A stretch of 64,000 nt of DNA from Parabacteroides faecis (lineage in GTDB: Bacteria; Bacteroidota; Bacteroidia; Bacteroidales; Tannerellaceae). The notes under the pieces are model-generated. The model did not search any database and was not told the DNA's origin. It saw only the letters and a list, made by a program, of their open reading frames with translations. Positions 36,020 through 53,639 of the stretch are shown one piece after another (the stretch's first letter is position 1; each line of letters begins with the position of its first letter). A program made the translations under genes and the position numbers. The DNA is taken from the NCBI RefSeq assembly GCF_014647375.1, contig NZ_BMPB01000004.1, forward strand, positions 62,001 to 126,000. Reading direction: 5' to 3'.

Positions 36020-36814
36020 TTATACGGCCACTTCTCCTTTTATATGGGGATGCGGGTCATAACCGGTCAGGTTGAAATCTTCGTATTTGAAATCGAAGAT
36101 GCTTTTTACATCCGGATTAATCTCCATCCGGGGGAGAGGACGCGGTTCGCGGGTAAGCTGTAGTTTTACCTGTTCAATATGATTGCTGTAAATATGGGCA
36201 TCGCCCAGCGTATGAACGAAATCTCCGGCTTTCAGTCCTGTAACCTGTGCCATCATCTGCAATAGCAGTGCGTAAGAAGCTATATTGAAAGGTACACCCA
36301 GGAATATGTCGGCACTGCGCTGATACAATTGTAGGCTCAGGCGTCCGTTCGCCACATAAAACTGAAAAAATGCATGACACGGAGGAAGGTTCATGTTTTC
36401 AAGGTCACCCACATTCCAGGCACTGACAATGATCCGTCGGGAATCCGGATTATGTTTGATCGTTTCGACTGCTTCACTGATCTGATCGATGGAACCTCCT
36501 TTGTAATCCGGCCACGAGCGCCATTGGAATCCATAGATATGTCCCAGGTTTCCGTCAGGGTCCGCCCATTCGTTCCAGATACGCACGCCATGTTCCTGTA
36601 AATACTTCGCATTGGTATCTCCCTGCAGGAACCAGAGCAGTTCGTATATGATCGACTTCAGATGCAGCTTCTTCGTTGTAAGCAGAGGAAATCCCTCTTC
36701 CATATTGAATCGCATTTGATGGCCGAAAACACTTTGTGTACCGGTCCCGGTACGGTCTTCCTTCCTGACACCTTCGGCTAATACGCGATCCAGCAATTCT
36801 AAGTATTGTTTCAT
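36020..36814 (-). CDS. thyA: Thymidylate synthase
   Basis: 264 aa, the length of the E. coli enzyme. It methylates dUMP to dTMP using methylene-tetrahydrofolate. The nucleophile Cys146 lies in [28 protein letters not shown], the phosphate-binding Arg region [10 protein letters not shown] and the C-terminal segment [14 protein letters not shown] are all intact. It forms an operon with folA. Confidence 0.97.
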
Positions 36815-36835
36815 TTTTATCTCTCTAGTAGCTTA

Positions 36836-36866
36836 CAAAAATACGAAAGGGATTTGTATTAAACAA
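36836..36866 (-). promoter_or_regulatory. Promoter of thyA-folA
   Basis: TATTTTTG on the minus strand (36836-36843), 22 nt before thyA. A GTTG-like -33 element follows at about 20 nt spacing. This makes a distant origin of the thyA transcript unnecessary. Confidence 0.6.
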
Positions 36867-36869
36867 CAG

Positions 36870-37271
36870 GTAAGTTTTAAAATGGAGTTTTCCCTGTTTA
36901 CAAATTGTAAAAAGATATGCGTCTTTGATTAGCTAAATGATACGTTAAAAAATATTAGTCGCCAGGGTAATTCAATTTATACGGCATACTAATCTGATTT
37001 ACCCGGTATAGTAGTGACAAAATGATAATCGGGGAGTGGAGGACACGTGTGAGTACTACATTTATATAAAAGCTGAAAATTTTTAATTATGCAGTTTGGA
37101 AGTATGGATAATTTTGGATATATATTTATTAATATTAAAGTACACGTACGTTAGTTTTATGGTCTTCCAACCCTTGGGAGTTTAATGCAAAATACTTATT
37201 TAATAAATGATCTGAATTCTTTGTATGTAATGAATTGCAGGGCGTGAGGTCTGATTTTCAATGACTAAAAA
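36870..37271. other. AT-rich non-coding stretch upstream of the invertible segment
   Basis: About 400 bases without a credible gene. I see a near match to the Bacteroides inversion-site core at 37142-37151 (ACACGTACGT) but no inverted partner, and a weak 6-bp GGGTAA/TTACCC pair (36965-37005 region). Nothing else is recognised. Confidence 0.5.
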
Positions 37272-37456
37272 AAACGTTCCTTTTTTTCTTGCAGCAAAAA
37301 TACGCATTCCTTTTGAACCTGCAATTCTTTTCAGAACTTTTTTCACTTTTCTATCTGCTTTCTTATCAGTACAATACGAAAACAGGGACAAAATACCCGC
37401 TTCCTGTTACAAAAGTAAAAGAATCCTAAACGCATGACTAGAAAAAAGGAACGTTT
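37272..37456. repeat. Candidate invertible promoter segment bounded by inverted repeats
   Basis: Left arm AAACGTTCCTTTTTTTC (37272-37288) and right arm GAAAAAAGGAACGTTT (37441-37456) are inverted copies that differ only in the length of the T run. The spacer is 152 bp. Their core AAACGTTCCT matches 9 of 10 positions of the ARACGTWCGT motif I recall for Bacteroides sites inverted by Mpi-type serine recombinases. The spacer holds a consensus-like promoter facing left, away from the giant gene at 37635, and no consensus promoter facing right. Inversion would place that promoter about 200 nt upstream of the 1714-aa gene. The recombinase is not in the window. Confidence 0.6.
37295..37325 (-). promoter_or_regulatory. 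Minus-strand promoter inside the candidate invertible segment
   Basis: TATTTTTG followed by C (37295-37302) with ATTG (37322-37325) exactly 19 nt upstream on the minus strand, a 3-of-4 match to the -33 element. In this orientation transcription would leave the segment leftwards, with no gene nearby except the distant, independently promoted thyA. Confidence 0.6.
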
Positions 37457-37634
37457 AAACTCGTCAAATCGGTAATCGACGGGTAAAAAAGATGCCCTGA
37501 TACAGGCATTTAGCAGTTCCCCTAAAATGCTTTTTCTTGTGTCCTACGGGGTTAGGTAGCTGAAATGAGCTAAATGAGAGAGATTTTATCGAAATGATTA
37601 TAGATTATAATTTTATTAATTAAATGTTTTACGT
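37457..37634 (+). promoter_or_regulatory. Leader region of the 1714-aa surface protein gene
   Basis: 178 nt between the right inverted repeat and the start codon. It contains a small hairpin (ATGCC...GGCAT, 37492-37509) and a CCCC/GGGG-containing stretch (about 37518-37552), but no TAnnTTTG on the plus strand. It therefore appears to be an untranslated leader that needs a promoter from the invertible segment. Confidence 0.45.
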
Positions 37635-40600
37635 ATGAGAAAAAGTACTTTGGTAAAAGGCGGGTCGGCCGCTCTTTTATGTGCTATGGCTTTTTATGGC
37701 TTGTCTCCGATGCTGAATGCAGCAGACCCGGACTATGCCAATATTAAGGCTAAGTGGTATGAAACAGTGGACTCTGAAAGTGCGTGGGAAAATGAGGCTG
37801 GTCTGGTAAGTGGCCCGACTCATTTGAAACCGATCGACAAGGTGAACGTTCACGATCATTGGGAAGCAAATTCGACTTCTTATGGCAACTATGAGTCGTT
37901 GATCGACTTCACAAAGATGAATGCAGGTTTGATGAACGGTGTTTTTGTAACCTTCTTCAATCTGGATGCAAGTGATGCTCCTAACTATCTGAAGCCTTTC
38001 ACCGGAAAGTATCTGGAGATGGCTTATTCGGATATTAAGAATCACGAAGAAATGAATACGGCCGAATATCTGAAATTTACAGATGACAAAGGCAATACCG
38101 GATTAGGTATTTATCAGAACCAGACTGCCAGTTCACGTGTAGACTTCCTGTATAGCACAAAAGGCTTGACAGGTGTTGAAAGCGTTGAAATGGATATTCG
38201 TGCTTTTGGTAATACGGACCTGGTAAACCGTAAGATCGACTGGACATATGATGTATATGTTTATGATCTGTCAGGAGAATTTGTAGGTCAGATGGTTAGC
38301 GACCGTGCAGTTTTCACAGCTAATAACCATGAAATAGCAACAGCCCATACGCATCATATTAAAGCGCATGTTTCTGATGCCGATAATACGAATCCTAATT
38401 CATGGCAGCAGGGATCTTTGGACAACAAGATGATTATTGTTATGTTCAGAGGTGCTAAATCACTTGCTGATGATGCAGTTGAATCTACAGGTTCAAAGAA
38501 CACAGAACCGTTGACAGTATTCACAAATGCAAGATTGGCGTTCAATCGTCCGGATGTTGCTTTCGGTGCTGCAAATACAAAGATATTTGAAGCTGGTGCC
38601 GGACGTAATACTTCTTGCGCTACCGATACATTGACAACAACAGTAGATCTGTGGAATACATTGTATGAGAACAGCAAGTCAAATAATGAGTATACTGCAA
38701 CTTTCGGTGGTGCAGATCGTGATGTTCTGGCTCTTATTGATCAAACTCAGGCTCAGAACTCAAAAGAAGAATTGGCATATTACGAATTGAACGTGGAGTA
38801 TCCGTTTATCGTTGATAAGATGGAAATCTCCCAGAAAGACGATATGTCGAAAGTTCAGGGTTGGGTATCTATGGATGAACTGACAGCTGGTCCAGCTTAC
38901 AAAGTTGTTATAAAAGGTACACCGGGCAAAGATAAGAAAGTTACTTATCTGATCCCTCGTGAATTCTTCGTTCAGACAGATGCTACCGATGATCGCGATT
39001 GCAAATCAAGCGCTCGTTTCACTTATTACTTTGCTCCGCAGGAAGTAAAAGCATTCGAAAAATCTAACTATATCTGGTCTACTATCACAGCTGAAGCTTC
39101 TGATACAGCTCGTTATGCACTTCAGGCTACTTCTGTTCCTGAATATAACGAATTGAACGATCTGTTCTTCGACGAATATCTGGATTTCAAGACTGCAAAA
39201 GTTAGCTTCAAGAATCTGCCTTATTTCAACTCATTCGACAATGGTCGTACAATGGATGAAATGCATTATGGTGAATTGCTGCTGGTTAACCGCACAAAAG
39301 CGCCGAAGCATTCAACCGATCGTTATGATGACGATGTAAATATCAAGGGTTGGAAGATCGTCTTCATTAATGATCAGAATAAGAAAGACTCTACTTATGT
39401 GCCGGGTCGTTACTTGCCGATGTCTGTTTACGGACATAGCTATACTGACTATGCTGCATGGTTGGAAGAACATGGTTGTCCGGAATGCTGTATCGAAGAT
39501 GAACCGGAAGAAATCGGTTCTTATGTTGAAAATCTTCCTGTAATCGACTGTTCAGGTAATATCTATCCGAACATCGTTAGCGTAAATGCTATCTTTAAAT
39601 ATCATCGTGGTGATGTGAATATTGGTGACGACGAGTCTAAGTATGTAAATGAAACATATACTATTAATCCGGCTCTGACTTACGATGCTTCTATCGCAAG
39701 ATATTTTGAAAATGAAGATGTATTGAAAGGTACAACTTATACTTACACTGGACAGGATCTGATGGATAAGGTTGGTGGTGCAGTTTATTCAGGCCCGATC
39801 AAGATCTTCGGTAACAATACATTCGTATGGTTCCAGGATACTGACCAGTCTCTGTTAAGCCACGCTATGGGCGTTCTTAGCTCTGAATTCCTGAAATATT
39901 TCGAACGTATCGACCGTAAAGACTTCTTCTTCGCTCCTTACGACGAATGGGATAACTACAAATATGAGTCAAGACCTCACACTGTTAAGATCTTCGCAAC
40001 AGGTTTGAAACCTGATGTTGCTGGTGGTACAGTTGCTTCTATCAAGGTCTTCAAAGAAAAGTTCTCTAAAACTGAAAGCTTTGACGATGCAGTTTATCAT
40101 ACAAATGCGTTCATGTTCACTGGTGAAAGCCTTGATTTCGCAAAAGTATATGTGAAGAAAGGTAATCAGGAAAAACCGATCGAAGAATACGACGGATACC
40201 AGTGGGGTAAATTTATCGGTATGAGCACAGGTGATACTTTGATTTACAAAGTTGACCTGGATAACGACTACGCTGTACAGTACTTGGAAGAAAACGGTCT
40301 TGATATGACTGTTAAATATGTACCTTACAACGACGTGAACCTGCTTCCGATCGCTAAAGAATATTGGGATTATTGCTGCTTCGAAGGTACGCCTAACGTA
40401 TTCAACCACGTAGCTCAGTTCGGTGTAACTACATCCAACAAGAAGGGTTGGAACGAGTTCTATACATTCGGTACTACTGACAGAGGTTTGACTACTACAA
40501 TGAACGCTGATAAGATCATCGGTTCATATACAAGCTTCTATTCATTCCTGACTCAGCAGTTCGGTTCTTGCAACGACTGCGGTGGCGGTAACATTCCTAA

Positions 40601-42779
40601 CTATAGTGGTTACGGTGGATATGTATCAGAATCCGGAACTAACTGGGTTCCTGCTCCTAACTTGATCTATAACGAAATGTTCCGTAAGGATTACAAAACT
40701 CGTTATGTAAATACTTGCTATCCGGTGCGCGACGGTCAGTTCATTATCTCTGGTTTGAACATTGTTGAACCGGTTGATATGGATGTATTCTCTAACAAGA
40801 AAGGTGCTTTCGATTATGAAGTAACAGTTCTTGCCGACCTGAATGGTATACCTTATGGTAAAGTTGATACAGTTGGTACTACAGTTCAGATCTCTCCGAA
40901 CAAATACGGTGAAGTATTGGCTCTTGTTTCTGCTAAGTTCGATCCGAAAGATCGCGATGGTATTGCAATGACTATCGATACAATCACAAGTGGTTCAGAA
41001 AAGGGTATGTGGGCTCGCTACTATGCGAAAGACTCTATCCGTCTGGCTCCGCAACAGCATGGTGCTGATGTTGAAAGATGGAACCGTGTATACTTCTTCG
41101 ACTTGGATGATTACAAACATAATCTGTCATTTGAAGATGAAAAGTGGAAACACTTCGGTATTTGGGCTCCTTACGGAATCAATATCAACGATACATTGAC
41201 TGCAACTATCAAGGGTGACGTGAAAGTTCCTGAAGTATGGTTCAGCTCGGATGCTGCAGGTAAGAACAAGATCAATGCATTCCAGTTCGGTGTTGTCAAT
41301 GGTGGCGCATCTAAAGATTCTGTATTCTATATCCAGGGTCGTGACCTGCCTCATTACGGTACTACTGTAAAAGATACAGATCCTAAGGTAGAACAGGAAA
41401 TCAACTTGTTGAGCGCTTCTGACTTGTTCACATTCGGAACAAACAAAGCTAAAGAAGTGAAACTGTTCATCCGTGAGAAATCCATGGAACTGGCTGGTAC
41501 GGTAGAAGATGCTCCTTATATCTATAAGGGTGCTGCAGGCGAACTGGTTAAGAATGTTCTTCGTGGTGACGTAGCTGCTCAGATCGCTGTTCGTGCTACT
41601 CCGAATGTAGAAGATCTGTGTGACGTAGAAAATGCACTGTCTCTGGCAGCTGTATGTGACGTTCAGCAGAATCTGCCGCTGGCATTCACTGCCGGTCTTG
41701 AAATGCCGTATATCAAAGATATGGAACCGGGTGATGTTGGTGGTAGCGATGCTCGCATCAAATGGACAGCAACTCCGGGTGCTCAGTACTATCAGGTAGC
41801 TGTAGGTCGCTTCACTCCGAAGTTCACTTCAGAAGATGTATTCATGTCTGAAGTACGTGCTGACGATGCAAGCAAGACTATCTGGGTTGAATTGTTCAAC
41901 GCAACAGGCGATGTTATCCACCGTGATAATAAAGTTAACTACTGGTTGGAAGTAACTAAAGAATATACTGATGCTGCAGGTAAACCTCAGAAAGAGATAA
42001 CTAAGGTAAGTGTAGACAACTTCGAACTGCAAGGTAATACGCAACCGATCGACAGAAACTGGGGTTATGCTCCGATTGCCCACCAGATGGACAACATGGA
42101 ACTGACTACAGACATCACGAAGCCGGTTAAATATACTATCCGTTTGATGGAAGGATTCCAGACTGACGAACACCAGATCGACATTTATCTGTTCGATACT
42201 CCTGCAACATGGATGGTAAGAAAGCCGGTTCAGGGTATGCCTATCAACGGTGGTGAGTTCAACACTGGTGACTGGAGAACTGAAGTAGGTTCATTGCCTA
42301 CAGCTTATTACGAATGGCAGGATGATGTCAACTTCGACGGTGAAGAATCGTTCAAGGTTACTGCAACATCCACGTCGATAGCTGTTCATAACCTGATCCC
42401 GCAGACAGCTTACACTGCACGTGTACGTGCATTCAATGAGTGTGTAGGTGGTGAGGAAATGATTCCGTCGGAAGACTTCTATGACTTCGCTACATCTAAG
42501 ACTGCTACCTCTACTGGTGACATCTACTTCGATGAAGCAGAAGAACATAATCCGGTTTCTAACGAATCTATCAATACAACTGACGTAACAGTTCTGGGTG
42601 GCCAGGGTAAGGTTACGATCCTGAATGCTACTAACAAGAAAGTTGTTATCAGCAATGTATTGGGTCAGACTATTGCTAACACGACCATTACTTCTGACAA
42701 TGTTACATTCAACGCTCCTTCCGGAATCGTGGTTGTAGCTCTTGAAGACGGAACAATTGTGAAAGCAGTCGTTAAGTAA
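37635..42779 (+). CDS. Giant secreted surface protein with DUF6383-like type IX C-terminal domain (1714 aa)
   Basis: A Sec signal (MRKSTLVKGGSAALLCAMAFYGLSPMLNA) opens a long protein of beta-rich, mostly unrecognised sequence. Residues ~1355-1460 (DARIKWTATPGAQYYQVAVG) and ~1560-1625 (SIAVHNLIPQTAYTARVRAFNE) look like fibronectin type III domains. The last ~75 residues (GGQGKVTILNATNKKVVISN, ending IVVVALEDGTIVKAVVK) match the DUF6383/type IX sorting-domain pattern, so the protein is probably exported by the PorE/PorQ system and anchored on the surface. Several Cys clusters (GCPECC, YCCFEG, SCNDCGG) may form disulfides. No enzyme motif is seen. Likely role: surface-layer or adhesin component; this is inference. 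No forward promoter is visible directly upstream; the candidate invertible segment lies 178 nt away. Strong terminator downstream. Confidence 0.8.
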   Translation: MRKSTLVKGGSAALLCAMAFYGLSPMLNAADPDYANIKAKWYETVDSESAWENEAGLVSGPTHLKPIDKVNVHDHWEANSTSYGNYESLIDFTKMNAGLMNGVFVTFFNLDASDAPNYLKPFTGKYLEMAYSDIKNHEEMNTAEYLKFTDDKGNTGLGIYQNQTASSRVDFLYSTKGLTGVESVEMDIRAFGNTDLVNRKIDWTYDVYVYDLSGEFVGQMVSDRAVFTANNHEIATAHTHHIKAHVSDADNTNPNSWQQGSLDNKMIIVMFRGAKSLADDAVESTGSKNTEPLTVFTNARLAFNRPDVAFGAANTKIFEAGAGRNTSCATDTLTTTVDLWNTLYENSKSNNEYTATFGGADRDVLALIDQTQAQNSKEELAYYELNVEYPFIVDKMEISQKDDMSKVQGWVSMDELTAGPAYKVVIKGTPGKDKKVTYLIPREFFVQTDATDDRDCKSSARFTYYFAPQEVKAFEKSNYIWSTITAEASDTARYALQATSVPEYNELNDLFFDEYLDFKTAKVSFKNLPYFNSFDNGRTMDEMHYGELLLVNRTKAPKHSTDRYDDDVNIKGWKIVFINDQNKKDSTYVPGRYLPMSVYGHSYTDYAAWLEEHGCPECCIEDEPEEIGSYVENLPVIDCSGNIYPNIVSVNAIFKYHRGDVNIGDDESKYVNETYTINPALTYDASIARYFENEDVLKGTTYTYTGQDLMDKVGGAVYSGPIKIFGNNTFVWFQDTDQSLLSHAMGVLSSEFLKYFERIDRKDFFFAPYDEWDNYKYESRPHTVKIFATGLKPDVAGGTVASIKVFKEKFSKTESFDDAVYHTNAFMFTGESLDFAKVYVKKGNQEKPIEEYDGYQWGKFIGMSTGDTLIYKVDLDNDYAVQYLEENGLDMTVKYVPYNDVNLLPIAKEYWDYCCFEGTPNVFNHVAQFGVTTSNKKGWNEFYTFGTTDRGLTTTMNADKIIGSYTSFYSFLTQQFGSCNDCGGGNIPNYSGYGGYVSESGTNWVPAPNLIYNEMFRKDYKTRYVNTCYPVRDGQFIISGLNIVEPVDMDVFSNKKGAFDYEVTVLADLNGIPYGKVDTVGTTVQISPNKYGEVLALVSAKFDPKDRDGIAMTIDTITSGSEKGMWARYYAKDSIRLAPQQHGADVERWNRVYFFDLDDYKHNLSFEDEKWKHFGIWAPYGININDTLTATIKGDVKVPEVWFSSDAAGKNKINAFQFGVVNGGASKDSVFYIQGRDLPHYGTTVKDTDPKVEQEINLLSASDLFTFGTNKAKEVKLFIREKSMELAGTVEDAPYIYKGAAGELVKNVLRGDVAAQIAVRATPNVEDLCDVENALSLAAVCDVQQNLPLAFTAGLEMPYIKDMEPGDVGGSDARIKWTATPGAQYYQVAVGRFTPKFTSEDVFMSEVRADDASKTIWVELFNATGDVIHRDNKVNYWLEVTKEYTDAAGKPQKEITKVSVDNFELQGNTQPIDRNWGYAPIAHQMDNMELTTDITKPVKYTIRLMEGFQTDEHQIDIYLFDTPATWMVRKPVQGMPINGGEFNTGDWRTEVGSLPTAYYEWQDDVNFDGEESFKVTATSTSIAVHNLIPQTAYTARVRAFNECVGGEEMIPSEDFYDFATSKTATSTGDIYFDEAEEHNPVSNESINTTDVTVLGGQGKVTILNATNKKVVISNVLGQTIANTTITSDNVTFNAPSGIVVVALEDGTIVKAVVK

Positions 42780-42878: not shown

Positions 42879-42977
42879 CTGACACCAACTAACCTGCGAA
42901 GGCGAAAATGCGGGTATTAATACTAAAGTAATGAAATATAAATTCTTCCGCCTTAGCTCTGTGAAGAATGAAAGCGG

Positions 42978-43016
42978 ATACAAACCCTGGCGGAGTTTAT
43001 TTGTCAGGGTTTGTAT
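42978..43016 (+). terminator. Terminator after the 1714-aa surface protein gene
   Basis: Perfect 12-bp stem ATACAAACCCTG (42978-42989) / CAGGGTTTGTAT (43005-43016), 15-nt loop, followed by TATTTTAATTAACTT. Confidence 0.8.
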
Positions 43017-43088
43017 TATTTTAATTAACTTGATTATAAGCACTTACTATCTATTGATTGAAGTATAAACAAAATAAAATAATGGCGT

Positions 43089-46000
43089 ATGAAAAAAGTA
43101 TACTTGATCGATGTGAGTAGGCGACTACTTATATTCGTGCTTCTGTTGGGAGGGTATATTACACAGGCGATTGCAGCAGACATTTATGTCCCCGTGAAAG
43201 ATGTCTTGTCTTATTATGAAGGAACCAGTGAGGCAAATGCAGAACAGCTAAAATCCCATATCCAAAGTTTAATACAGGATGTCGTAGACCAGAGTGGCGA
43301 ATCGGCAACTGTTTCAGATGTCACCGTCAGAGGTGGCGGAAGTGCACATACCGGCGATCTGGTTGCCGGCAGTTATAATTATACCTTTAATATAACCGCA
43401 TCTTCCGGAACATTTAACTTTTTCCGGGCGATCGACCAGAATCCTATAACTCCCAATCGGGTCGATGGACCTACAGGAGGGGCTGTGACTGTTACCGTGC
43501 CCTTGGCGATCGAGATCAAAGCTCGTCAGGCTGTCGGTAATTTGAAGTTCCCGGCTAACTGGGGAAATTATGTGTATGGTACATCTGTCAGCAACCTGTA
43601 TACCAAAATACAGGTGCTCGATATGCCCGGAGTTTCATTTAATGATGCTTCGGTTTTTCTGGTTAAAGACGGTGCTTCTGTCCAATATACCGGAAGTAAC
43701 CTGTTGGAGGCCGGAAAGTATGACGTGGTCGTGACATTTCCACCGACCGGTCAGTTCGCTTATGAACCGACTTTGGCCAATTGTACAAAGCAAGAGACCG
43801 GTTCTTATATTTCTACAAAACAATTGGTTGTAAAAGAGAAACCTATCGATAATACGGTATTCCCCGTATTTGCCGAAAAGGTGGGAGGACTGGGAGAACT
43901 GGATCCGGCTTCCAATATCAATCTGAACCGGATCAAAAGACTGATCACAAACAATATCAGTTCTTCGGATGATTTTATTTCCGAAATAAAAGTGTATTCA
44001 AACAGTAATTTCACCAATGAAGTGACCTCTGGTCCGTTATCCCCCGGTGCTGTATATAGTTACCGTGTGGTGTTGTTGCCTAATTATGGTGAAGGAAGTA
44101 ATGTTTCTGCCGGTGTAGGCGGAGCCAGTATTTCTTTGAACACTGCACAGTGGAGTTACGATATTGCCAATGCAATAGCCATAGGAAAGAATACGCTGCC
44201 GGTTAAATTACCAGATTTTCTATCGAGTCCGATCCGCATCGGTGATTATAACGACAACACAGCAGTGGCTACAATGCTGAAAAGACTGATCCAGGATATT
44301 AATCCGGATATGGTAGACCAGGGGCTTGTTCCTCAGATAGAAGTAACCGGAGGTACAGTTTCATCCGGCATGGCCGATAATACCCAACTCGGATATAAAG
44401 TAACGGTTCAAGGTGATTTGTCCCAGACTAATCTGAATTTTGTTACGGATGGAAATGTGTCGAGTGCCAATCTGGTGGTGAATGGAAATGTTTGTACATT
44501 TAACAATTCTCTGTTGTTTGTAACGACATTGCCTACTACTCACTCTTTGGCTTATCCGGGCAACTATCAGATCAATTACGAAAAAGAGATGCTTCCGAAA
44601 GCGGTCATCCGTCGTATCAAGAGCGACTTGCTGGTACGCAATGCAGGTGTCCTGGGGAACGAAACATTCAGTGTGCGTCTGATCAATAATGATCTGAGCA
44701 ATAAGAATGCGATCGCAGAAACAGACGATTCGTTCGGTTATAAGATTATTATCAATAAGAGTGCGACGCTGCAGGAAATTGAAACTCCTGCAAATCCACG
44801 TATCAATGTAGTGAATAAAGAAACGACTATTGAAATAACTTATTCGAGAAGCATCGCTATCGTTCCTCGTCCGACTATCGATTTCACATTCGGTGAATAT
44901 ACCGTTCAATATGTGAAGGATATGACTCGTGATCAGCTTGCAGAAAAGGTACGCGAATATATCTATCTGGCTAATCCGTTTGTGGCCGAGTATATAGCGA
45001 ATGTACAGATCACTAATACCCGTATCAGGGAAAATATGGGAACAGCAACATATCGCGTGACGTTAAGCTCCGATCTGGATGTTCTCTTCTCAGAGGTATT
45101 TGTGAACGGACAGCAGTATAATTCAACGACATTCGAAGGTATTGTAAATATTACTCCGCGTCCGATCGCAAAAGTGAAACTTTACAAGTATGAGTTCAAG
45201 AAAGAAGGTGCTTCCAATGATATGATCGAGAAAGCGATCCTGGCTGACCTGCTTTTGAAGAATCCGGATATGAAGGGAGCTTATATCTCCAGTCTGACGT
45301 TAGTTCCGACAATGAGTAGAGACGTTTATTCTTATACGGTTGTATTCAGTCCGAATGATAATATACAGAAGATAGAGTTTACGAATGAAGATGGCGGTAT
45401 TGTTATCCCGATAGAACTCTTTGGTTATACAACAGCTACTTATGCCCGTTCGGTACGGTTAACGGACAACGGTCAGTCGCTGGCGGAATATCCGTTGCCG
45501 GTCAATGTGCAACTGCCATTGTGGGAACGTCCGTTCGGAGAGACTGCCGATGAATATGCGGAGGCTTTATTGAATGATTTCAGACTGACTCCGGGTGCGG
45601 AACGTGTTACTGTTCCTAACCTGAATAACTGGGGTGTGAAGGCTTACCTGATCAACAACGAAACTTCTACAGGAAATCTTCCGGTACGCATTGCCGGTGA
45701 AAGCTATCCGCAGGTATCCGACCTGTATGGATATGAAGTGGTTGCTGGTGCCAATACGCAATTCTCAGAGTATTATACATTAAATTATACGGCTCCGTCC
45801 AGTATCCATCTGACAGTGAACGGTAATGACGCGATCGCGAAACTGGCTCTCCGTATCATGAAGGCCAAATGTACACTCACTTTACCGCAGGTCGACGTGA
45901 CTTACAAGGATATCAACACAAAAGTCGCTCTGCTGGATTCTGTGAAGAAAGCAGTTCTGGAAGATCCTACCAATCAGAAATTCTTCGAGCTGGTGGCTAA

Positions 46001-49000
46001 GACCGGTGTTAAACCGTTGAAAAGCTTCACTGTAGCAATCAATAATGTGGTAGAAGAAGGTACGGTTCCGGTCAATACATATACTTATTCGGTTATATTC
46101 GTTCAGAAAGTGACGGATAATATTGAAATAAGTGAAACAGGAGCTAAGACTCTGGTCGTGAACAAAGCTCCGGTAGAGTTCGTATTCCCGACCGATATTT
46201 TCTACCGTTACGGAAAGCGTAAGGTGGCCATCGAAGCCGATATCCTTAGTCAGTTCCTGGCTGCAAACGAAGGCTTGTTGAGCAGCTATGGTTGTTTCGA
46301 AAATCCGGCAGATTTGTTCCAGGTTATGCTGACTACCGCTGATTGTACGGCTGAAGCAACCGAAACAATGCCTAAGAATGGTGACTACGGCTATATGGTG
46401 AAGGTTCTTGATCCGGCCTTGTTGCCGAACTTCCTGCTTGTCGATCAGTTTGGTAGTGATTTCCACAATGTACAGAACTCTGTACAGATCGGCCAGCGTA
46501 AACTGACGATCACTTTGCCTACTTATCTGGCTGCAACAGCCGAAGAAGGAAGTGCTGCGAAAGCTGCATTTATTTTCGGTAAAGCGACAAAAGCACAGAT
46601 TGTTCAGCAGATTTACGATGATATCGTTGCTTTAAACGGTAGCAAGATTAAGAGCGATTATACATTGGTTGTTGATTTGATTACAACAAAGGCACAGCTG
46701 GATAAACAGAATCCTGTGATCGGTGATTATAGTTATACGATTGACCTTACATCCGCAGATTATACATTCGTTTATGAAATAGAAGGTGCAGAAGTGGATG
46801 AAACGGATGAGGTAACTGCAGTTAACGCTGTGAAGGTGATTGCTCCGGGTATTGTAATAACATTCAACGAAGAACAATTGAAAGGTGTTTGGAGTATTGT
46901 CAATGCGGCTCCTGTATATGAGCTGGCAGATTTGGCATTGGTGGCTGATGATTATGGATTCGGCTTTGTCTCTTTGAAAGAAGATCCGGAAAATCCGACG
47001 GCTGCGATGACTAAAGATCGCTGGAATGCTTTGTTCAAAAACAACAAACTGCATTGGGCGTTGTATCGTAACAATAAACTTCAGTTCCATGGTAATACCT
47101 TAAACAGTGTATTGGTCGATTCTATCAGGAATAATGTTACACAGGGTACTTACAAGCTTCGTATCATAGATGCTTCTACCTTGAAGGCGGCTATCGGAAA
47201 CTTCGAGATCCAGTTGGATACAGATCTGGCGACTTTGAAAGTGACTCCGGCTACCGTAGAGATAAAAGCTGGTAAAGAGGTTTATACGAAAGTATATGGT
47301 ACGGAAGTAACAAAAGATACCGACCTGAGTACTAAGTTAACATTCGTGGCAGAACCGAAGTTGAATAAAGCGAAATTGTTAGCCGAAAAGAATGTGATCG
47401 ATTTGTTCGAAACAATCCTGCCGGTTGACGAAAATGTCTATAAAGCAGATGCACCGGTAGGTGATTATCAGATCCGTGCAGTAGATGCGATGGTGAAAGA
47501 TATGTTGACTCCGGTTATCGGTGTTAAGTTCGCAGCAAGCGAAACAGAAGCCAAAGTAACGGTGACTCCGGCTCCGTTGGCAGCTGAAGATTTGATCTTA
47601 ACCATCTCGGTAACCCGTGAATATGGTGAAGATGCAACCGATGCAGACGTATATGCTGATGTGGCAGGCGACCTGTCCGATACATTCCGTACTGAGATAC
47701 TTGAGTTGTTGAACGGTGAAAAGGTAAACCGTACGAGCTGGCTGGATTTGTCCGGTGTTAATAAGAAGACAGACGTAGGTACATACGAACTGCGCTTTAC
47801 TTCTTCGGCTGTTGCTCAGATCGCAGCGTTGCTTCCGAACTTCAATATATCGGGTGCTACTCTTGTGAATGCCGGACTGACAGTGACGAAAGCACCGTTG
47901 ATCGTTCGCGCATGCAGTTACAACCGTGCATACGGTGCAGGTAATCCTGAACTTGAAATCGAATATATCGGTTTGAAGAATAACGAATATGAAAACCTGG
48001 CTGATGTATTCTCGGTAATGCCGAAAGTGGCAACAGATGCTAAATCTGATTCACGTGGTTCTTATGATATCTACTTCACGGTAGAAGGAGAAGCCCGTAA
48101 CTATGCAGTGACTCACGAAAACGGTGTCTTGTCGATCGATAAGATCCGTCGTACGATCATCTGGCCGGAAGATCAGCGCAATCTGGTGATCCCGGTAGGT
48201 GAAACAGTAGAGTTGTCTGCTTATCTGAAATCGGAAGCTGACGGTAAACCGTCTATCTACGATATCCGTTATGAGTTGTCAGGCAACGATCGCGAACGCG
48301 TGATCCTGTCTGAAGTATCGAGAGGTGTTTATGCCGTAACCGGAAATGTACGCACGGAAGGTGACAACTTTGTAACCATTACCGTATTTGCCGACGGCGA
48401 CGATACATATGAAGAGTCGATCCCTGTAACGGGTACTATCAAAGTGGTTGCTCCGGAAGGAGATGCCGCGAAGGTGAATGTGATCGTTTCCAACGTAACC
48501 AGCATTTACGACGGTTCTCCGAGAGCTGTAAGCGTGAAGGTGACAGATGTGGAAACCGGCGAAGCTGTGAAAGATTTCAGTATCTATTACGAAGGTGACC
48601 AGTTGGGATCGGTTCCGACCTATTATCCTTCTACACAGGATGCTCCGGTGGATGCAGGTGTATATACCGTAACGGTAAAAGCTACGCTTGGTTCGGTTAC
48701 TTATTCTTACACAGCTAAGAACAAGATGGTGATCGCTCCGAAGCCGGTTGTTGTAACAGCCCGTAACTTCGATATAAAGTATGGTGATGCAATGCCTGCT
48801 TATGCAAATGCTTACGATTATAACAAGAATGACTTCCTGAATGGTGAAGACTTCAAGGTCGGCCAGGCTCCGGTGGTTCGCCTCGTAGCATACAGCGGCA
48901 AGGCAGGTTCGTATAAGCTGACTCCGTATTCTGCACAGGACTTCGGTGGCAACTATGTGATCACGTATGTATCCGGTCTGTTGAATGTAAGCAAAGCTGC

Positions 49001-49766
49001 CGTGACTATCCAGGCCGATAATAAAGAGTCTGTTTACGGTAAAGAACAGGAAGAACTGACTTATACTGCTACAGGTTTCGTGAATGGTGAAACGTTGAAA
49101 GACCTCGGTTTTGCTCCGCGTATCAGTTCTACTATAACAAGAACATCTGATGCGGGAACTTATCCGATCACATTCTCTGATAATTATACATCCGATAACT
49201 ACGAAGTTTCTTATATAGACGGCAAGTACAATCTGCTGGCTGCTTCGCAGAAAATCAGTTGGAACCCTGAAAGCGTAATAGACGTAGAAGGTGGCGACGT
49301 GATCCTTACAGCGACTGCTTCAAGTAAACTTCCGGTTACATTCAATTCGTCTAACGACGTTGTTGCTTATGTGAACCAGATTGGAGACGCATGGATCCTG
49401 ACTCCGGTTACTTCCGGTACGGTAACGGTTACAGCTATGCAGCATGGTAACAAGAACTATAATGCTGCTGAACCTGTGGTAGTAACCTTCCTGGTAGACG
49501 ATGAATATCTGTCTGTCGATAATGAAAAGATCACAGTAACTGATCATATCGAAGTTTATCCGAGACTGTTTACTCACTCTGTGACAGTTGCTGCTCCGTC
49601 TGAGATCAAACAAGTAGAATTACTATTGATGAACGGAACGGTGCAGAAAGTTATTCGCAAACCGGGATCTGTTATTGATCTGTCATCATTTGGATCAGGT
49701 ATTTATCTGCTCAATGTGACATTGGAAGACGGAACATTCAAATCTGTGAAGATCATTAAGAAGTAA
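43089..49766 (+). CDS. Giant repeat-rich secreted protein with MBG domains and type IX sorting domain (2225 aa)
   Basis: A Sec signal (RRLLIFVLLLGGYITQAIAA) is followed by about eleven repeats of 100-130 residues between residues ~30 and ~1250. Repeat starts are near 32, 153, 258, 371, 481, 590, 691, 806, 930, 1030 and 1139. Each has a beta start (e.g. FPTDIFYRYG, RPTIDFTFGEYTV), a helix of the A-x-x-I-x-x-D-L/I-L type, an N-P or similar turn, and a closing G-x-Y-x-Y-x-V strand. I do not recognise this repeat. Residues ~1390-2060 carry MBG-type domains, with the motif K-x-x-Y-G-x-x-x-P (AYGAGNPELEIEY, IKYGDAMPAYANAY, SVYGKEQEELTYTATGF). The C-terminus (VYPRLFTHSVTV, IDLSSFGSGIYLLNV, SVKIIKK) is a type IX type A sorting domain. 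It lies 19 nt before the next cargo gene. Function unknown; a stalk-like surface structure is likely. Confidence 0.8.
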   Translation: MKKVYLIDVSRRLLIFVLLLGGYITQAIAADIYVPVKDVLSYYEGTSEANAEQLKSHIQSLIQDVVDQSGESATVSDVTVRGGGSAHTGDLVAGSYNYTFNITASSGTFNFFRAIDQNPITPNRVDGPTGGAVTVTVPLAIEIKARQAVGNLKFPANWGNYVYGTSVSNLYTKIQVLDMPGVSFNDASVFLVKDGASVQYTGSNLLEAGKYDVVVTFPPTGQFAYEPTLANCTKQETGSYISTKQLVVKEKPIDNTVFPVFAEKVGGLGELDPASNINLNRIKRLITNNISSSDDFISEIKVYSNSNFTNEVTSGPLSPGAVYSYRVVLLPNYGEGSNVSAGVGGASISLNTAQWSYDIANAIAIGKNTLPVKLPDFLSSPIRIGDYNDNTAVATMLKRLIQDINPDMVDQGLVPQIEVTGGTVSSGMADNTQLGYKVTVQGDLSQTNLNFVTDGNVSSANLVVNGNVCTFNNSLLFVTTLPTTHSLAYPGNYQINYEKEMLPKAVIRRIKSDLLVRNAGVLGNETFSVRLINNDLSNKNAIAETDDSFGYKIIINKSATLQEIETPANPRINVVNKETTIEITYSRSIAIVPRPTIDFTFGEYTVQYVKDMTRDQLAEKVREYIYLANPFVAEYIANVQITNTRIRENMGTATYRVTLSSDLDVLFSEVFVNGQQYNSTTFEGIVNITPRPIAKVKLYKYEFKKEGASNDMIEKAILADLLLKNPDMKGAYISSLTLVPTMSRDVYSYTVVFSPNDNIQKIEFTNEDGGIVIPIELFGYTTATYARSVRLTDNGQSLAEYPLPVNVQLPLWERPFGETADEYAEALLNDFRLTPGAERVTVPNLNNWGVKAYLINNETSTGNLPVRIAGESYPQVSDLYGYEVVAGANTQFSEYYTLNYTAPSSIHLTVNGNDAIAKLALRIMKAKCTLTLPQVDVTYKDINTKVALLDSVKKAVLEDPTNQKFFELVAKTGVKPLKSFTVAINNVVEEGTVPVNTYTYSVIFVQKVTDNIEISETGAKTLVVNKAPVEFVFPTDIFYRYGKRKVAIEADILSQFLAANEGLLSSYGCFENPADLFQVMLTTADCTAEATETMPKNGDYGYMVKVLDPALLPNFLLVDQFGSDFHNVQNSVQIGQRKLTITLPTYLAATAEEGSAAKAAFIFGKATKAQIVQQIYDDIVALNGSKIKSDYTLVVDLITTKAQLDKQNPVIGDYSYTIDLTSADYTFVYEIEGAEVDETDEVTAVNAVKVIAPGIVITFNEEQLKGVWSIVNAAPVYELADLALVADDYGFGFVSLKEDPENPTAAMTKDRWNALFKNNKLHWALYRNNKLQFHGNTLNSVLVDSIRNNVTQGTYKLRIIDASTLKAAIGNFEIQLDTDLATLKVTPATVEIKAGKEVYTKVYGTEVTKDTDLSTKLTFVAEPKLNKAKLLAEKNVIDLFETILPVDENVYKADAPVGDYQIRAVDAMVKDMLTPVIGVKFAASETEAKVTVTPAPLAAEDLILTISVTREYGEDATDADVYADVAGDLSDTFRTEILELLNGEKVNRTSWLDLSGVNKKTDVGTYELRFTSSAVAQIAALLPNFNISGATLVNAGLTVTKAPLIVRACSYNRAYGAGNPELEIEYIGLKNNEYENLADVFSVMPKVATDAKSDSRGSYDIYFTVEGEARNYAVTHENGVLSIDKIRRTIIWPEDQRNLVIPVGETVELSAYLKSEADGKPSIYDIRYELSGNDRERVILSEVSRGVYAVTGNVRTEGDNFVTITVFADGDDTYEESIPVTGTIKVVAPEGDAAKVNVIVSNVTSIYDGSPRAVSVKVTDVETGEAVKDFSIYYEGDQLGSVPTYYPSTQDAPVDAGVYTVTVKATLGSVTYSYTAKNKMVIAPKPVVVTARNFDIKYGDAMPAYANAYDYNKNDFLNGEDFKVGQAPVVRLVAYSGKAGSYKLTPYSAQDFGGNYVITYVSGLLNVSKAAVTIQADNKESVYGKEQEELTYTATGFVNGETLKDLGFAPRISSTITRTSDAGTYPITFSDNYTSDNYEVSYIDGKYNLLAASQKISWNPESVIDVEGGDVILTATASSKLPVTFNSSNDVVAYVNQIGDAWILTPVTSGTVTVTAMQHGNKNYNAAEPVVVTFLVDDEYLSVDNEKITVTDHIEVYPRLFTHSVTVAAPSEIKQVELLLMNGTVQKVIRKPGSVIDLSSFGSGIYLLNVTLEDGTFKSVKIIKK

Positions 49767-49785
49767 CCTGTAAAACTAATTTAGT

Positions 49786-52700
49786 ATGAAGAAATATATT
49801 AAATCAATATTAACATCGAGGAAGCAGCTTATGCTGCTTCCCCTGATGCTCGTTTCAGGCGGTATCATGCAGGCACAGACAGCTGTTCCTGATACTATAT
49901 ATGTGAGTTTCAATGCCAATACACCGTTAGCGATGACCTATGGTCAGGAACTGGGAACGGTGGCAGGAGGTATTAGCGGGGCCAGTTTCAACTACTTCTA
50001 TGTGAATGGAGATGGAAGTGTACATGGTAATATCGGAGAAGGAGTAACATTTAAAGCTCCGACGCAGGCTCTTGATGTCCTGAAGTTTTCAGCAACGCCA
50101 ACAGTTAGCGGAGGGGAAACGCTGGGTTTTGTTGCGAATAATCTGACTGGTTATTTTCAATATGCAAATTCAAGCAATGTCGTGTTCTTCGTCAGTAACC
50201 GGGAAGGTACATTTACAAGTATGCCTCTTACGGTGAATCCCGCTGAGTTAAATATTGCGGCTAAGGATACCAGCCGTTTCTATGGAGATGAGAATCCGGT
50301 AACGCCCTGGTCTACCAAAGACTTTGTGTTCGACGGATTTGTAAATGGAGATACGGAAGCCATTTTCACCAATTCACAGGTGAATATGTTGCCGACTGTC
50401 TCTTATTCTGCTGCCGATAAAAGTTCGGCTCCCGGAACTTATGTGATCGAACTGACCGGTGGTCAGGCGGCCAACTATTCACTGAATTTGCTGGTTTGGT
50501 CTGATACCTGGCAGGAAGGCAGAGGTTTGCTGACTGTTAACAAAGCTCCTCTTACACTGGCTGTACCCGACAGTGTCCGTTTATACGATGACGCTAATAT
50601 CGGAACTATTCCGGCTGGCGAACTTGTTATAACGGCTGGCGAGTTGAAGAATGAGCAGACTCTGGAAGGCTTGTTTGAAGGGGATAATCTGGCTGTCGTT
50701 CATACGGCTGTTTCAGCTGCGGTAAATAAACCTAAAAGCGATGTTGGTACATACAGCTATGAGCTGACGGAAGCTGCGACCACTCAGGTTACATGGAGAT
50801 TGTCTAATTATGATATCCAGGCAATTGCTGCCGGAAAGTATGAAGTGAAGAAAGATACGATCACCATTACGGTCTTTGATGCGTATCAGGCAGTAACTAT
50901 AGAGGCTAAATCTGTCAATGTCATGCAGAAAATCTATGGTGAAGCGAATCCGGACGGATACTTCTGGCTGAAAAAGAGAGCGGAGAAACCTGCTGCGACA
51001 GCTCCTTCCTATGCTTTCTCTAAAGTAGCTGAGGCGGTGAATTATATTTCTGCAACGGCTGAAGGCGATAAAGGTTTCAAGGTTGCTCCACTTGCCGGAT
51101 ATTATGATTACGAAGGTAAGAAAGCAACTGAAAAGACAGAGGTGAATCTGAAACGTGAAAAGCCGAATCAGAAAGAGGACAGCCTGTATGTTGCCAAAGT
51201 GGATAATATCGACAAGGTTTCTTCTCTGAACTATGCGTTCAAGACTGTCGACGGTTCATTCCTGATCAACCAGCGTCAACTGGCTATCTGGAAAGTGATT
51301 GTAGACCGCGTATACGGTGAAGCCGATAAGGACACGACCTGGACATTCGAACCGAACGATGCCGACAAGAAACGTGGTCTGGCTATCTTTGATGCCAAAT
51401 ATCAGACAACAAGTACTCCTGACGATATTATCGACTTTATGCCGAAAGTAGTCGTTAAGCCAGTTGCTGCCGATAACACCCTGCATGCAGGATCTTATAA
51501 CGATACTTTGCAGATTAAGGTAGTTACGGAAGACAAGTCTGTTCAACCTCCGTTCGTGGCGAAAGATCGTAATTATAAGTTGCTTATGAATACATTGGTT
51601 CCGGGTACTAAAACGAACGACAGCGTTCGTCTGGAAGTGGCGAAAGCACCGCTGATCATCCGTCTGGATACGATCAAGAGAGCTTATGCTTCGGCCGATC
51701 CTGAATTTAACAAAGCAGAGGTTCAGAAAGAATTCATTTCTTATGAAGGTTTCAAACTGGACGAATCGGCGAACAATCTGGATTCAACGGCGACGGTAAC
51801 TGTCGGTAACCGTATCAAGAACCTGGTTATCAATAACCGTCCGGAAGGTATCCTGCCGGTAGGCACATACGAACTGACGGGTATTACCGCTATTAATGAG
51901 GAAAATCCGAATTATGAAATTACAATTGTAGGAAAAGCCCGTTATCAGATTTATCCGGATAACAGCTATGTCATGGTTTGGACTCCGATACAGAACGAAT
52001 TGATCGTAGGCGACCTTGTACGGTTGAATGCTGTAGTAAAACAGGGGACGACTGTAATTGCCGAAGGTTCTCAGATCACTTACGAATCTTCCAATCCGGC
52101 TCTGATCCAGGTTGAAAAGGTAGAAAGTATCTGGTATCTGCGTGCAAAAGACCTGACCGGTGACGAAGGTGTTACAATCACTGCCCGTTACAATGCAGAA
52201 TCCGGACAGGAGGAAGCTCTGAAATCGGAAGTATTTAAAGTAGTACGTCTGAAGAACGAAGCTGATTACAATGTCGTTCTGGGCAATATGGTATTCGATT
52301 ACGACGGTACGCCGAAAGCAGCCGATGTACAATTGACAGACCTGAAAGGTATCACGACATATAATCCGATCATTACTTACGACGGCGATCCTGATCTGCC
52401 GGTTGAAGCGGGTATCTATAACATCTCTATCTTTGTGAAACATAATGGTTCCGACCTGCTTGTCCGCAAGGAAAAGATGCAGATCAAACCGCGCGAAGTA
52501 TATGTGAAGCCGAAAGATGCGTTGATCTCTTATGGTGAAGAGTTACCGGCAACATTCGAATATACTTATTCCGGATTTATCGGCAGCGACGATTTCAGGG
52601 CAGCAACTGCTCCTGTTGTAAAAGTCGCCGGTACGATTACCGGAGCCGGTAACTATACATTATATGTAGAAGGCGGTGATCCGGGTACAAACTATACAGT

Positions 52701-53493
52701 AGTAGGAGGTACGGGAACACTTACCGTTTCGAAAGCCATTCTGACAATCAAGGCGGGCACGGTCAATATCGTTTACGGTGATGAAATTCCTGAACTGACA
52801 CCTGCATACGAAGGTTTTGTCGGTAGTGATAATCCGGATGTATTGAACTTCCTGTATACTGTGAAGACGAATGTGAAACCTGTCAATGCCGGTACTTACG
52901 ACCTGATTATCGACTGTCTGAGTTCAGATGAAGATAATTATGCCGTTACTTTGGTGCCTGGAAAACTGACAATAGCCAAAGCGGCTGCCGGTCTTCAGTA
53001 TTCTGTAGAATCGACAACTGTCATGGTAGGTGATTCTGTTCTGTTGTATGCAAGCTGCGAATCTCCGGCTAAGATTTCTTATGCTGCCGAATCGATCCAG
53101 ATTGCAGGTTTGCGTGAACATGCGGAAGGTGTACATGTGATCGGTAAGAGTGAAGGCATAAGTAAGGTTTACATCACTATACCGGAGTCGACCAACCATT
53201 TGGCACATCGCGATTCTGTAATCTTCAATGTGAAACTAGGTTCAGTAGGTAATGAATCTATCACTTTGCAGGGTGTCGGCCTGTATCCTACGATCGTAGA
53301 GTATAATGCGACAGTTGTATCTGAAACTCCGGTGGAAGCGATCTATGTAGTCGATGCAGCCGGTAAGCTCCGGAAACTTATTAAGAATCCGGAACAGGTG
53401 ATCGACCTGAGCCAGTTGCGTAGCGGTTATTATCTGGTACGTATCGTTTTGACAAATGGCGAAGCGAAGACGGTTCGGATCATAAAGAAGTAG
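49786..53493 (+). CDS. MBG-domain secreted protein with type IX sorting domain (1235 aa)
   Basis: Signal peptide MKKYIKSILTSRKQLMLLPLMLVSGGIMQAQ. MBG-type modules are recognisable near residue 155 (FYGDENPVTPWSTKDFVFDGF), 901 (ISYGEELPATFEYTYSGFIG) and 986 (IVYGDEIPELTPAYEGFVG), each ending in a Y-x-x-x-x-x-G-x-L-x-I strand; the regions in between look related but more divergent. The end (GLYPTIVEYNATVV, IDLSQLRSGYYLVRIV, TVRIIKK) is a type IX sorting domain similar to that of the previous gene. The two genes are separated by 19 nt, so they are surely expressed together. A terminator follows. No enzyme motif; probably a surface or adhesive structure. Confidence 0.85.
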   Translation: MKKYIKSILTSRKQLMLLPLMLVSGGIMQAQTAVPDTIYVSFNANTPLAMTYGQELGTVAGGISGASFNYFYVNGDGSVHGNIGEGVTFKAPTQALDVLKFSATPTVSGGETLGFVANNLTGYFQYANSSNVVFFVSNREGTFTSMPLTVNPAELNIAAKDTSRFYGDENPVTPWSTKDFVFDGFVNGDTEAIFTNSQVNMLPTVSYSAADKSSAPGTYVIELTGGQAANYSLNLLVWSDTWQEGRGLLTVNKAPLTLAVPDSVRLYDDANIGTIPAGELVITAGELKNEQTLEGLFEGDNLAVVHTAVSAAVNKPKSDVGTYSYELTEAATTQVTWRLSNYDIQAIAAGKYEVKKDTITITVFDAYQAVTIEAKSVNVMQKIYGEANPDGYFWLKKRAEKPAATAPSYAFSKVAEAVNYISATAEGDKGFKVAPLAGYYDYEGKKATEKTEVNLKREKPNQKEDSLYVAKVDNIDKVSSLNYAFKTVDGSFLINQRQLAIWKVIVDRVYGEADKDTTWTFEPNDADKKRGLAIFDAKYQTTSTPDDIIDFMPKVVVKPVAADNTLHAGSYNDTLQIKVVTEDKSVQPPFVAKDRNYKLLMNTLVPGTKTNDSVRLEVAKAPLIIRLDTIKRAYASADPEFNKAEVQKEFISYEGFKLDESANNLDSTATVTVGNRIKNLVINNRPEGILPVGTYELTGITAINEENPNYEITIVGKARYQIYPDNSYVMVWTPIQNELIVGDLVRLNAVVKQGTTVIAEGSQITYESSNPALIQVEKVESIWYLRAKDLTGDEGVTITARYNAESGQEEALKSEVFKVVRLKNEADYNVVLGNMVFDYDGTPKAADVQLTDLKGITTYNPIITYDGDPDLPVEAGIYNISIFVKHNGSDLLVRKEKMQIKPREVYVKPKDALISYGEELPATFEYTYSGFIGSDDFRAATAPVVKVAGTITGAGNYTLYVEGGDPGTNYTVVGGTGTLTVSKAILTIKAGTVNIVYGDEIPELTPAYEGFVGSDNPDVLNFLYTVKTNVKPVNAGTYDLIIDCLSSDEDNYAVTLVPGKLTIAKAAAGLQYSVESTTVMVGDSVLLYASCESPAKISYAAESIQIAGLREHAEGVHVIGKSEGISKVYITIPESTNHLAHRDSVIFNVKLGSVGNESITLQGVGLYPTIVEYNATVVSETPVEAIYVVDAAGKLRKLIKNPEQVIDLSQLRSGYYLVRIVLTNGEAKTVRIIKK

Positions 53494-53569
53494 TTTTGTA
53501 TTGATGACATATGTCTTTTCACTGGCGAATGCAGATTCACCGGTAAAGAGATAATATAGATAAAAAGAG

Positions 53570-53600
53570 AAGCCTTCCGGATGAATATTCGGAGGGCTTT
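53570..53600 (+). terminator. Terminator after the MBG-protein genes
   Basis: Arms AGCCTTCCG (53571-53579) and CGGAGGGCT (53590-53598), one G-T pair, followed by TTTTATATATTT. Confidence 0.8.
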
Positions 53601-53602
53601 TA

Positions 53603-53610
53603 TATATTTG
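53603..53610 (+). promoter_or_regulatory. -7 promoter element of the 323-aa secreted protein gene
   Basis: TATATTTG, 30 nt before the start codon, directly after the terminator of the giant genes. This suggests that the 323-aa gene is not controlled by the upstream switch. Confidence 0.55.
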
Positions 53611-53639
53611 TAGTATAAATCACTATAAAACAAAGTATT

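Follow-up and report, generated by a model that had tools for sequence, protein, structure and literature searches.

Genes and repeats at the locus

The window, that is, the whole stretch of 64,000 nucleotides analysed here, corresponds to C4:62001-126000 of the Parabacteroides faecis draft genome (6.66 Mb in 33 contigs; genome label G000). Positions given without a contig are those of the window. At 37635..42779, on the plus strand, it encodes a predicted surface protein of 1714 residues with a C-terminal DUF6383 domain (PF19910), which has been described, in PG2216 of Porphyromonas gingivalis, as putatively targeting proteins for type 9 secretion (PMC9722745). The N-terminus of the protein looks like a signal peptide. 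The reading frame is intact in the window, and over its first ~640 codons the dN/dS ratio against three orthologs is 0.17-0.26, from which it follows that the gene is used.

The left neighbour is the thymidylate synthase gene thyA (36020..36814, minus strand). Between it and the segment described below, ~95 bp at 36934-37029 are repeated at C25:1453-1549 (87%) and in relatives. To the right, genes of 2225, 1235 and 323 aa (43089-54611) carry type 9 secretion tails, two of them together with MBG repeats. A comparison of DUF6383 with the C-termini of these three gave a weak profile match (probability 28.5%).

Upstream of the 1714-aa gene, an inverted-repeat search finds two arms of 15 nt, 37272-37286 and 37442-37456, that are 100% complementary. 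The earlier note had drawn them as arms of 17 and 16 nt around a 152-bp spacer, which is the same structure with its inner ends left ragged. The inverted repeat is thereby confirmed, and its arms are not the product of chance. The dyads reach further than the arms: there are two 32-bp sites, each composed of an outer half, a crossover dinucleotide and an inner half. The left one (37262..37293, plus strand) reads TGACTAAAAAAAACG-TT-CCTTTTTTTCTTGCA, and the right one (37435..37466, plus strand), at a core-to-core distance of 173 bp, reads TGACTAGAAAAAAGG-AA-CGTTTAAACTCGTCA. In generalised form, the dyad containing the arm is approximately TGACTAGAAAAA-ACG-TT-CCT-TTTTTCTAGTCA; the inner half of the left site is worn, with CTTGCA in place of CTCGTCA. 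The predicted crossover dinucleotides, placed by the central-position identity in 79/79 arm pairs that is described below, are TT at 37277..37278 and AA at 37450..37451. They enclose an invertible segment of 171 bp (37279..37449), whose length and content match those of its paralogs.

In the genome, the 10-mer AAACGTTCCT has 46 occurrences, compared with 17 of the same pattern written backward as a control. It forms an inverted pair, the starts exactly 175 bp from each other, at five loci, the window locus included. The pattern ACGTTCC-N150-180-GGAACGT is found in five places, against one for its control. An Rfam search returned SNORA57 as the sole match; at 16.2 bits, far under the 40-bit gathering score, it was discarded.

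The segment's only promoter match points away from the gene

The Bacteroides-type promoter has the consensus TTTG / TAnnTTTG. We scanned both strands for TTTG (at least 3 of 4 bases), a spacing of N18-21 and TAnnTTTG. The entire window holds 13 matches; between 37272 and 37640 there is a single one on either strand, ATTG-N19-TATTTTTG at 37295..37325, minus strand. It is directed away from the 1714-aa gene, as first noticed from the sequence, and the segment is drawn in the OFF orientation for this reason. A sigma-70 scan of 36700-37800 gives no match. A crossover at 37277-37278/37450-37451 would carry this promoter to 37403-37433, the position that had been forecast for it. The stretch between right arm and gene also contains a terminator-like hairpin on the minus strand (37492..37509), with similar sequence in three orthologs.

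Upstream of the promoter, in the middle of the segment, lies the element TGATAAGAAAG (37358..37368, minus strand). It is invariant in the 12 segments of this genome introduced below, and is retained in two gene-facing relatives, as TGATAAGAAAG in the arm-less copy L068 and as GGATAAGAAAG in L069. It is probably a transcription factor site, perhaps for a shared regulator of the segment family.

Sibling switches in the same genome

A looser site search yields 75 + 77 matches, and its control 59 + 55; single matches must thus be mostly due to chance. Two single matches of AAACGTTCCT itself lie near two 305-aa frames that match tyrosine recombinases (G000:C3:185611 and C11:176969). Together with the DNA upstream of DUF6383 genes, the looser search led to a count of 12 such paired segments, which measure 180-185 bp with their arms. 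Besides the window copy, there are ten before DUF6383 genes and one before a decayed target; 11 of the 16 DUF6383 matches in the genome are preceded by an armed segment. The further core-bounded segments that the earlier note suggested looking for are thus present, and all 11 are OFF, making 12 of 12 armed copies in this assembly.

In nine of the 12, the exact motif ATTG-N19-TAnnTTTG faces away from the gene beside the inner arm; the other three have TAnnTTTG at that place, without TTG at the searched spacings. A gene-facing promoter pattern is found in none of these 12 armed segments. A second candidate promoter near the other arm, TTTG-N19-TAnnTTTG, is exact only in C1_181 and C10_269, and was not taken as the main promoter for this reason.

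Two more DUF6383 genes are preceded by relatives of the segment. L068 (G000:C4:142537-142640) has no arm pair and its promoter points towards the gene; L069 (C4:309 kb) is a degenerate element, gene-facing like L068. For the remaining three DUF6383 matches, no such element occurs in the 900 bp upstream. The segment before the decayed target, L017 (G000:C5:163626-163810), is a complete switch in front of a broken-looking gene: no long family frame follows, and a VapE-like gene lies downstream.

The family across the genus

We ran a sequence-only model of the segment on 39 genomes of the genus. It matches in 38 of them, weakly in some, with at least 14 matches in the window genome, at least 23 in G009, at least 21 in G038 and at least 19 in G013. 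From the matches listed, 103 segments were examined for orientation: 13 of 14 in the window genome, 21 of 23 in G009, 19 of 21 in G038, 16 of 19 in G013, 9 of 9 in both G012 and G015, 2 of 6 in G014, and one from each of 14 other genomes. Eighty-six are OFF and 11 are ON; six stand without a recognised family gene, among them two of the window genome, L014 (odd gene start; OFF) and the decayed L017.

Four of the 11 ON segments are armed: L212 in G038, L251 in G015, L169 in G019 and L168 in G027, the last with an atypical core. The other seven, 92-103 bp before their genes, have no arm pair by our stricter rule; one of them, L258, shows an imperfect pair under the looser rule. Altogether 24 of the 103 segments lack an arm pair by the stricter rule. 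The looser rule, applied to 22 of these, recovers a pair in 17 (that of L259 is probably chance) and none in five, all five ON. Six segments are without arms by two rules (L068, L167, L222, L223, L244 and L254), and all six point at the gene, which we call locked ON. This common direction fixes the polarity of the family and confirms the window copy as OFF. Arm-less locked-ON relatives are located ~38-43 kb from the window locus or its ortholog (L068, G009:C1:3681062 and G038:C7:783944).

Natural inversion is seen between sister species at two loci paralogous to that of the window. At the orthologous loci L212 (G038) and L236 (G013), the segment is 95.7% identical when one copy is inverted versus 66.7% in direct alignment, between flanks that are 99.3% and 91.9% identical. 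For L251 (G015) and L241 (G012), the segment reaches 87.4% inverted versus 61.9% direct, with flanks at 98.0% and 78.5%.

Measured from core to core, segment lengths fall into clusters around 163, 173 and 185 bp, in steps of about one helical turn. Over 17 distinct lengths, a vector test made post hoc and on related loci gives p 0.003; the clustering is only suggestive of a helical-turn spacing.

Orientation at the window's own locus

We consider it highly probable that the 171-bp segment is an Mpi-type invertible promoter for the 1714-aa DUF6383 gene, at present OFF; the interpretation of the earlier note largely holds. Five genomes were compared at the window's own locus (G000, G009, G038, G013 and G022, the last by a single alignment); the segment is OFF in each of them, and the inverted arrangement appears in none. 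Against its orthologs in the three species G009, G038 and G013, the window segment is 89.5-91.8% identical in direct alignment and 63.6-74.1% if turned. Compared between genomes, the orientation is found to differ at the two paralogous loci, not at this one.

The window copy could then be a relic, a segment of the family that flips no longer or very rarely and leaves its gene nearly silent. The uniform OFF state in 5/5 genomes fits such a relic, as does the worn inner half of the left site: its CTCGTCA end is lost in all four aligned species, so flipping here is maybe slower than at relatives. We nevertheless regard a relic as unlikely. The intact frame and the purifying selection over the first ~640 codons speak for a gene in use, and the segment, at 89.5-91.8% identity, is conserved better than its flanks: the left has 62-69%, and the right, for which this holds on average, 72-87%. 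Moreover, OFF is the rule of the family, with 86 of 97 assignable segments, so that an OFF state at the window locus is nothing special. As an invertible promoter, the window segment presumably still flips, with most cells keeping it OFF; the wear of the left site means that flipping at this locus may be slow or lost.

A predicted Mpi-type invertase, presumably acting in trans

The genome has four matches to PF00239. Three of them were scanned against NF009949, the NCBIfam model of the Mpi family; the fourth lies in a 621-aa frame. Of the three, only the recombinase at C13:214216-214815 passes, with 323 bits for a cut-off of 272, and is thus a candidate for the Mpi-like serine invertase that the earlier note proposed to look for; the remaining two, which are of similar small size, reach 188 and 185 bits, under the cut-off. 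Contigs C4, C5, C10 and C16, which carry 10 of the 12 segments, contain no PF00589 or PF00239 match, nor is there one within 150 kb of the two segments on C1. An enzyme that flips these segments would therefore have to act in trans. The genome combines 12 DUF6383-type segments, and ACG-NN-CGT pairs elsewhere, with one protein over the Mpi cut-off, on another contig.

Serine recombinases make a 2-bp staggered cut, and those two bases must match between the partners; for tyrosine recombinases, the whole spacer must match between paired sites. We chose arm pairs without use of the central two bases, which gave a pair in 79 of the 103 segments. In 79 of 79, the two partners share the central dinucleotide, and by it the pairs fall into seven kinds: TT 37, AT 20, TA 10, GT 4, AC 4, TC 2 and AA 2. 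Elsewhere in the 8-bp core, mismatches between partners do occur, at three positions and in 16, 8 and 2 pairs. The search pattern had fixed the G and C next to the dinucleotide, and the loci, being related, are not independent of one another; a further three positions, Ts on the inner side, are likewise free of differences within pairs, but hardly vary between them. Matching of this sort is the pattern expected from the 2-bp crossover of a serine recombinase. An earlier pair comparison, with 71/71 equal dinucleotides, was set aside because the choice of pairs had used the dinucleotide.

It is very improbable that a tyrosine recombinase of the Tsr/integrase type, with 12-bp arms and an 8-bp spacer, flips the segment instead. 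In favour of this, the site also fits the reading TGACTAGAAAAA-N8-TTTTTCTAGTCA, tyrosine-recombinase matches number 23 in the genome, and the capsule switches of P. distasonis use another repeat beside integrases, according to the accessible text of PMC12118408. Yet partners differ within this 8-bp spacer in some pairs and never at the central two bases, and the 12-8-12 site was rejected when whole-spacer identity failed in the pair comparison. No such recombinase occurs on the four contigs or in the C1 neighbourhoods named above, and the core resembles Mpi arms as printed in the accessible part of PMC8375218.

In the serine mechanism that we favour, a single trans-acting Mpi-type invertase (G000:C13:214216-214815) would pair the two inverted sites, cut at the central dinucleotide and invert what lies between them. 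As now oriented, the promoter would read away from the 1714-aa DUF6383 gene; after inversion, from ~37403-37433, it would transcribe the gene with a leader of ~195 nt. We infer that Mpi is the enzyme acting on these sites, and the ON state would presumably amount to surface display of the protein.

Some match to the invertase is present in 36 of the 39 genomes. Five have no close one (best below 49% identity): G022, G025, G029, G031 and G032. Among the matches listed, G025 has no segments, G029, G031 and G032 have one weak segment each, and G022 has at least 11, despite having only broken or distant relatives of the invertase. Co-occurrence of invertase and segments is thus mixed evidence, in genomes that differ in completeness.

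The invertase gene itself has an unpaired copy of the site, TGACGATAAAAAACGTTGGTTTTTACTAATCA, 58-90 bp upstream (G000:C13:214873-214904, L123), identical over 32 nt in G000, G013, G038 and G009. In 30 upstream regions of invertase genes, the site is identical in 4, degenerate in 6 and absent from 20. No convincing partner is found within the 9 kb read. The neighbouring DNA is also well conserved, so conservation of TGACGATAAAAAACGTTGGTTTTTACTAATCA proves little alone. The invertase may repress its own gene through this site.

Reach of the switch

The segment had been thought to drive a cluster of surface-protein genes, which is not borne out. A strong terminator-like hairpin with an 18-bp stem (42977..43017, plus strand) follows the 1714-aa gene and separates it from the 2225-aa gene, which is why we assign the switch to the former alone. 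This gap contains no Bacteroides-type promoter pattern, and a sigma-70 scan of it gives two weak matches, about the level of shuffled sequence. Control by the switch probably reaches only the 1714-aa gene, and read-through past the hairpin into the downstream genes may occur.

On the other side, the present orientation could feed thyA, in a two-way switch where OFF for the surface protein means ON for thymidylate synthesis. The gene, a minus-strand one, is separated from the left arm by 458 bp; a similar gene adjoins the locus on the left in G009, G038 and G013; and a scan of 36700-37800 finds no minus-strand terminator between segment and thyA. We give this arrangement little credence: a separate promoter-like match (first base of the -7 element at 36843) directly precedes the start of thyA, and the away side of the paralogs has various other neighbours. 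Finally, inverted repeats of at least 12 nt are common, with three others in 2 kb, but an origin by chance is refuted by the family, whose members have a fixed spacing, a conserved content and a common position ahead of paralogous genes, and can be dismissed.

Comparison with known systems

We file the window switch under a known kind, the Mpi-type invertible promoters, and not as a new one. In the parts of the sources available, Mpi of Bacteroides fragilis is a single serine invertase acting on at least thirteen scattered regions, seven of them polysaccharide loci (PMC5903667), with arms printed as ARACGTTCGTN (PMC8375218). The agreement of the core with the Mpi motif in 9 of 10 bases, claimed in the earlier note, stands, as AAACGTTCCT agrees with this printed arm to that extent; the form ARACGTWCGT given there differs from the printed one, and was not found in the literature searched, which lacks most subscription papers. 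The enzyme of the window genome passes the Mpi-family cut-off of NCBIfam. In contrast to the B. fragilis arms, the inner half-site in the window has CCT and not CGT, a misfit common to most switches of its own genome; arms in other members of the genus are AAACGTACGT or AAACGTTCGT. The targets also differ: the accessible text counts seven polysaccharide regions in B. fragilis, whereas those studied here are single large DUF6383 proteins.

Bacteroides intestinalis has PVR capsule promoters, on segments of 183-186 bp with arms GTTCGTTTAA. One PVR is mainly ON and the others mainly OFF in wild-type culture, and the species has at least two Mpi homologs (PMC8375218, accessible part). Capsule operons are driven there, a single surface protein here. 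The BT1927 S-layer of Bacteroides thetaiotaomicron, like our proposed target a phase-variable surface protein, is expressed in ~1/1000 cells in culture; its repeats, CCGTTACCTABVRAGTAAC, differ from ours and lie beside site-specific integrases (PMC12118408, accessible part).

No paper on a master DNA invertase of Parabacteroides turned up in the literature searched, where subscription papers are few and absence shows little. A family of phase-variable surface glycoproteins in Parabacteroides distasonis was reportedly described by Fletcher et al. in 2007. That the DUF6383 genes are this same family is our guess. Numerous inversion sites are mentioned for P. distasonis in the accessible part of PMC5903667, and the parts available of PMC11892184, PMC8748976, PMC3090145 and PMC12632263 hold nothing on a DUF6383 switch family.

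A possible silent repertoire of surface proteins

Through these data, the DUF6383 surface proteins, a large family spread over the genus, are connected with a single predicted invertase and a common site architecture. Given a precise crossover position, ordinary reads suffice to count ON states. The bias towards OFF, together with the locked-ON relatives, offers a testable picture of a gut commensal's reserve of surface proteins, perhaps directed against phage or immunity. In three larger-genome species where both loci are seen, a locked-ON relative occupies the matching chromosomal place. As a tentative and rather doubtful extension, the genus might keep a largely silent repertoire of ~10-20 OFF-biased Mpi switches per larger genome, next to an arm-less, locked-ON default at the matching place in those three species. 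Feedback of the invertase on its own site would set the bias; the default protein would be displayed and the others rarely added.

Elsewhere in the genome, eight inverted pairs of ACG-NN-CGT or a near form (L110, L111, L112, L113, L114, L115, L117 and L120), 142-176 bp apart, adjoin polysaccharide synthesis genes, a sigma factor, a TonB receptor, a glycosyltransferase, KdpA and others. They are possible further targets of the same invertase.
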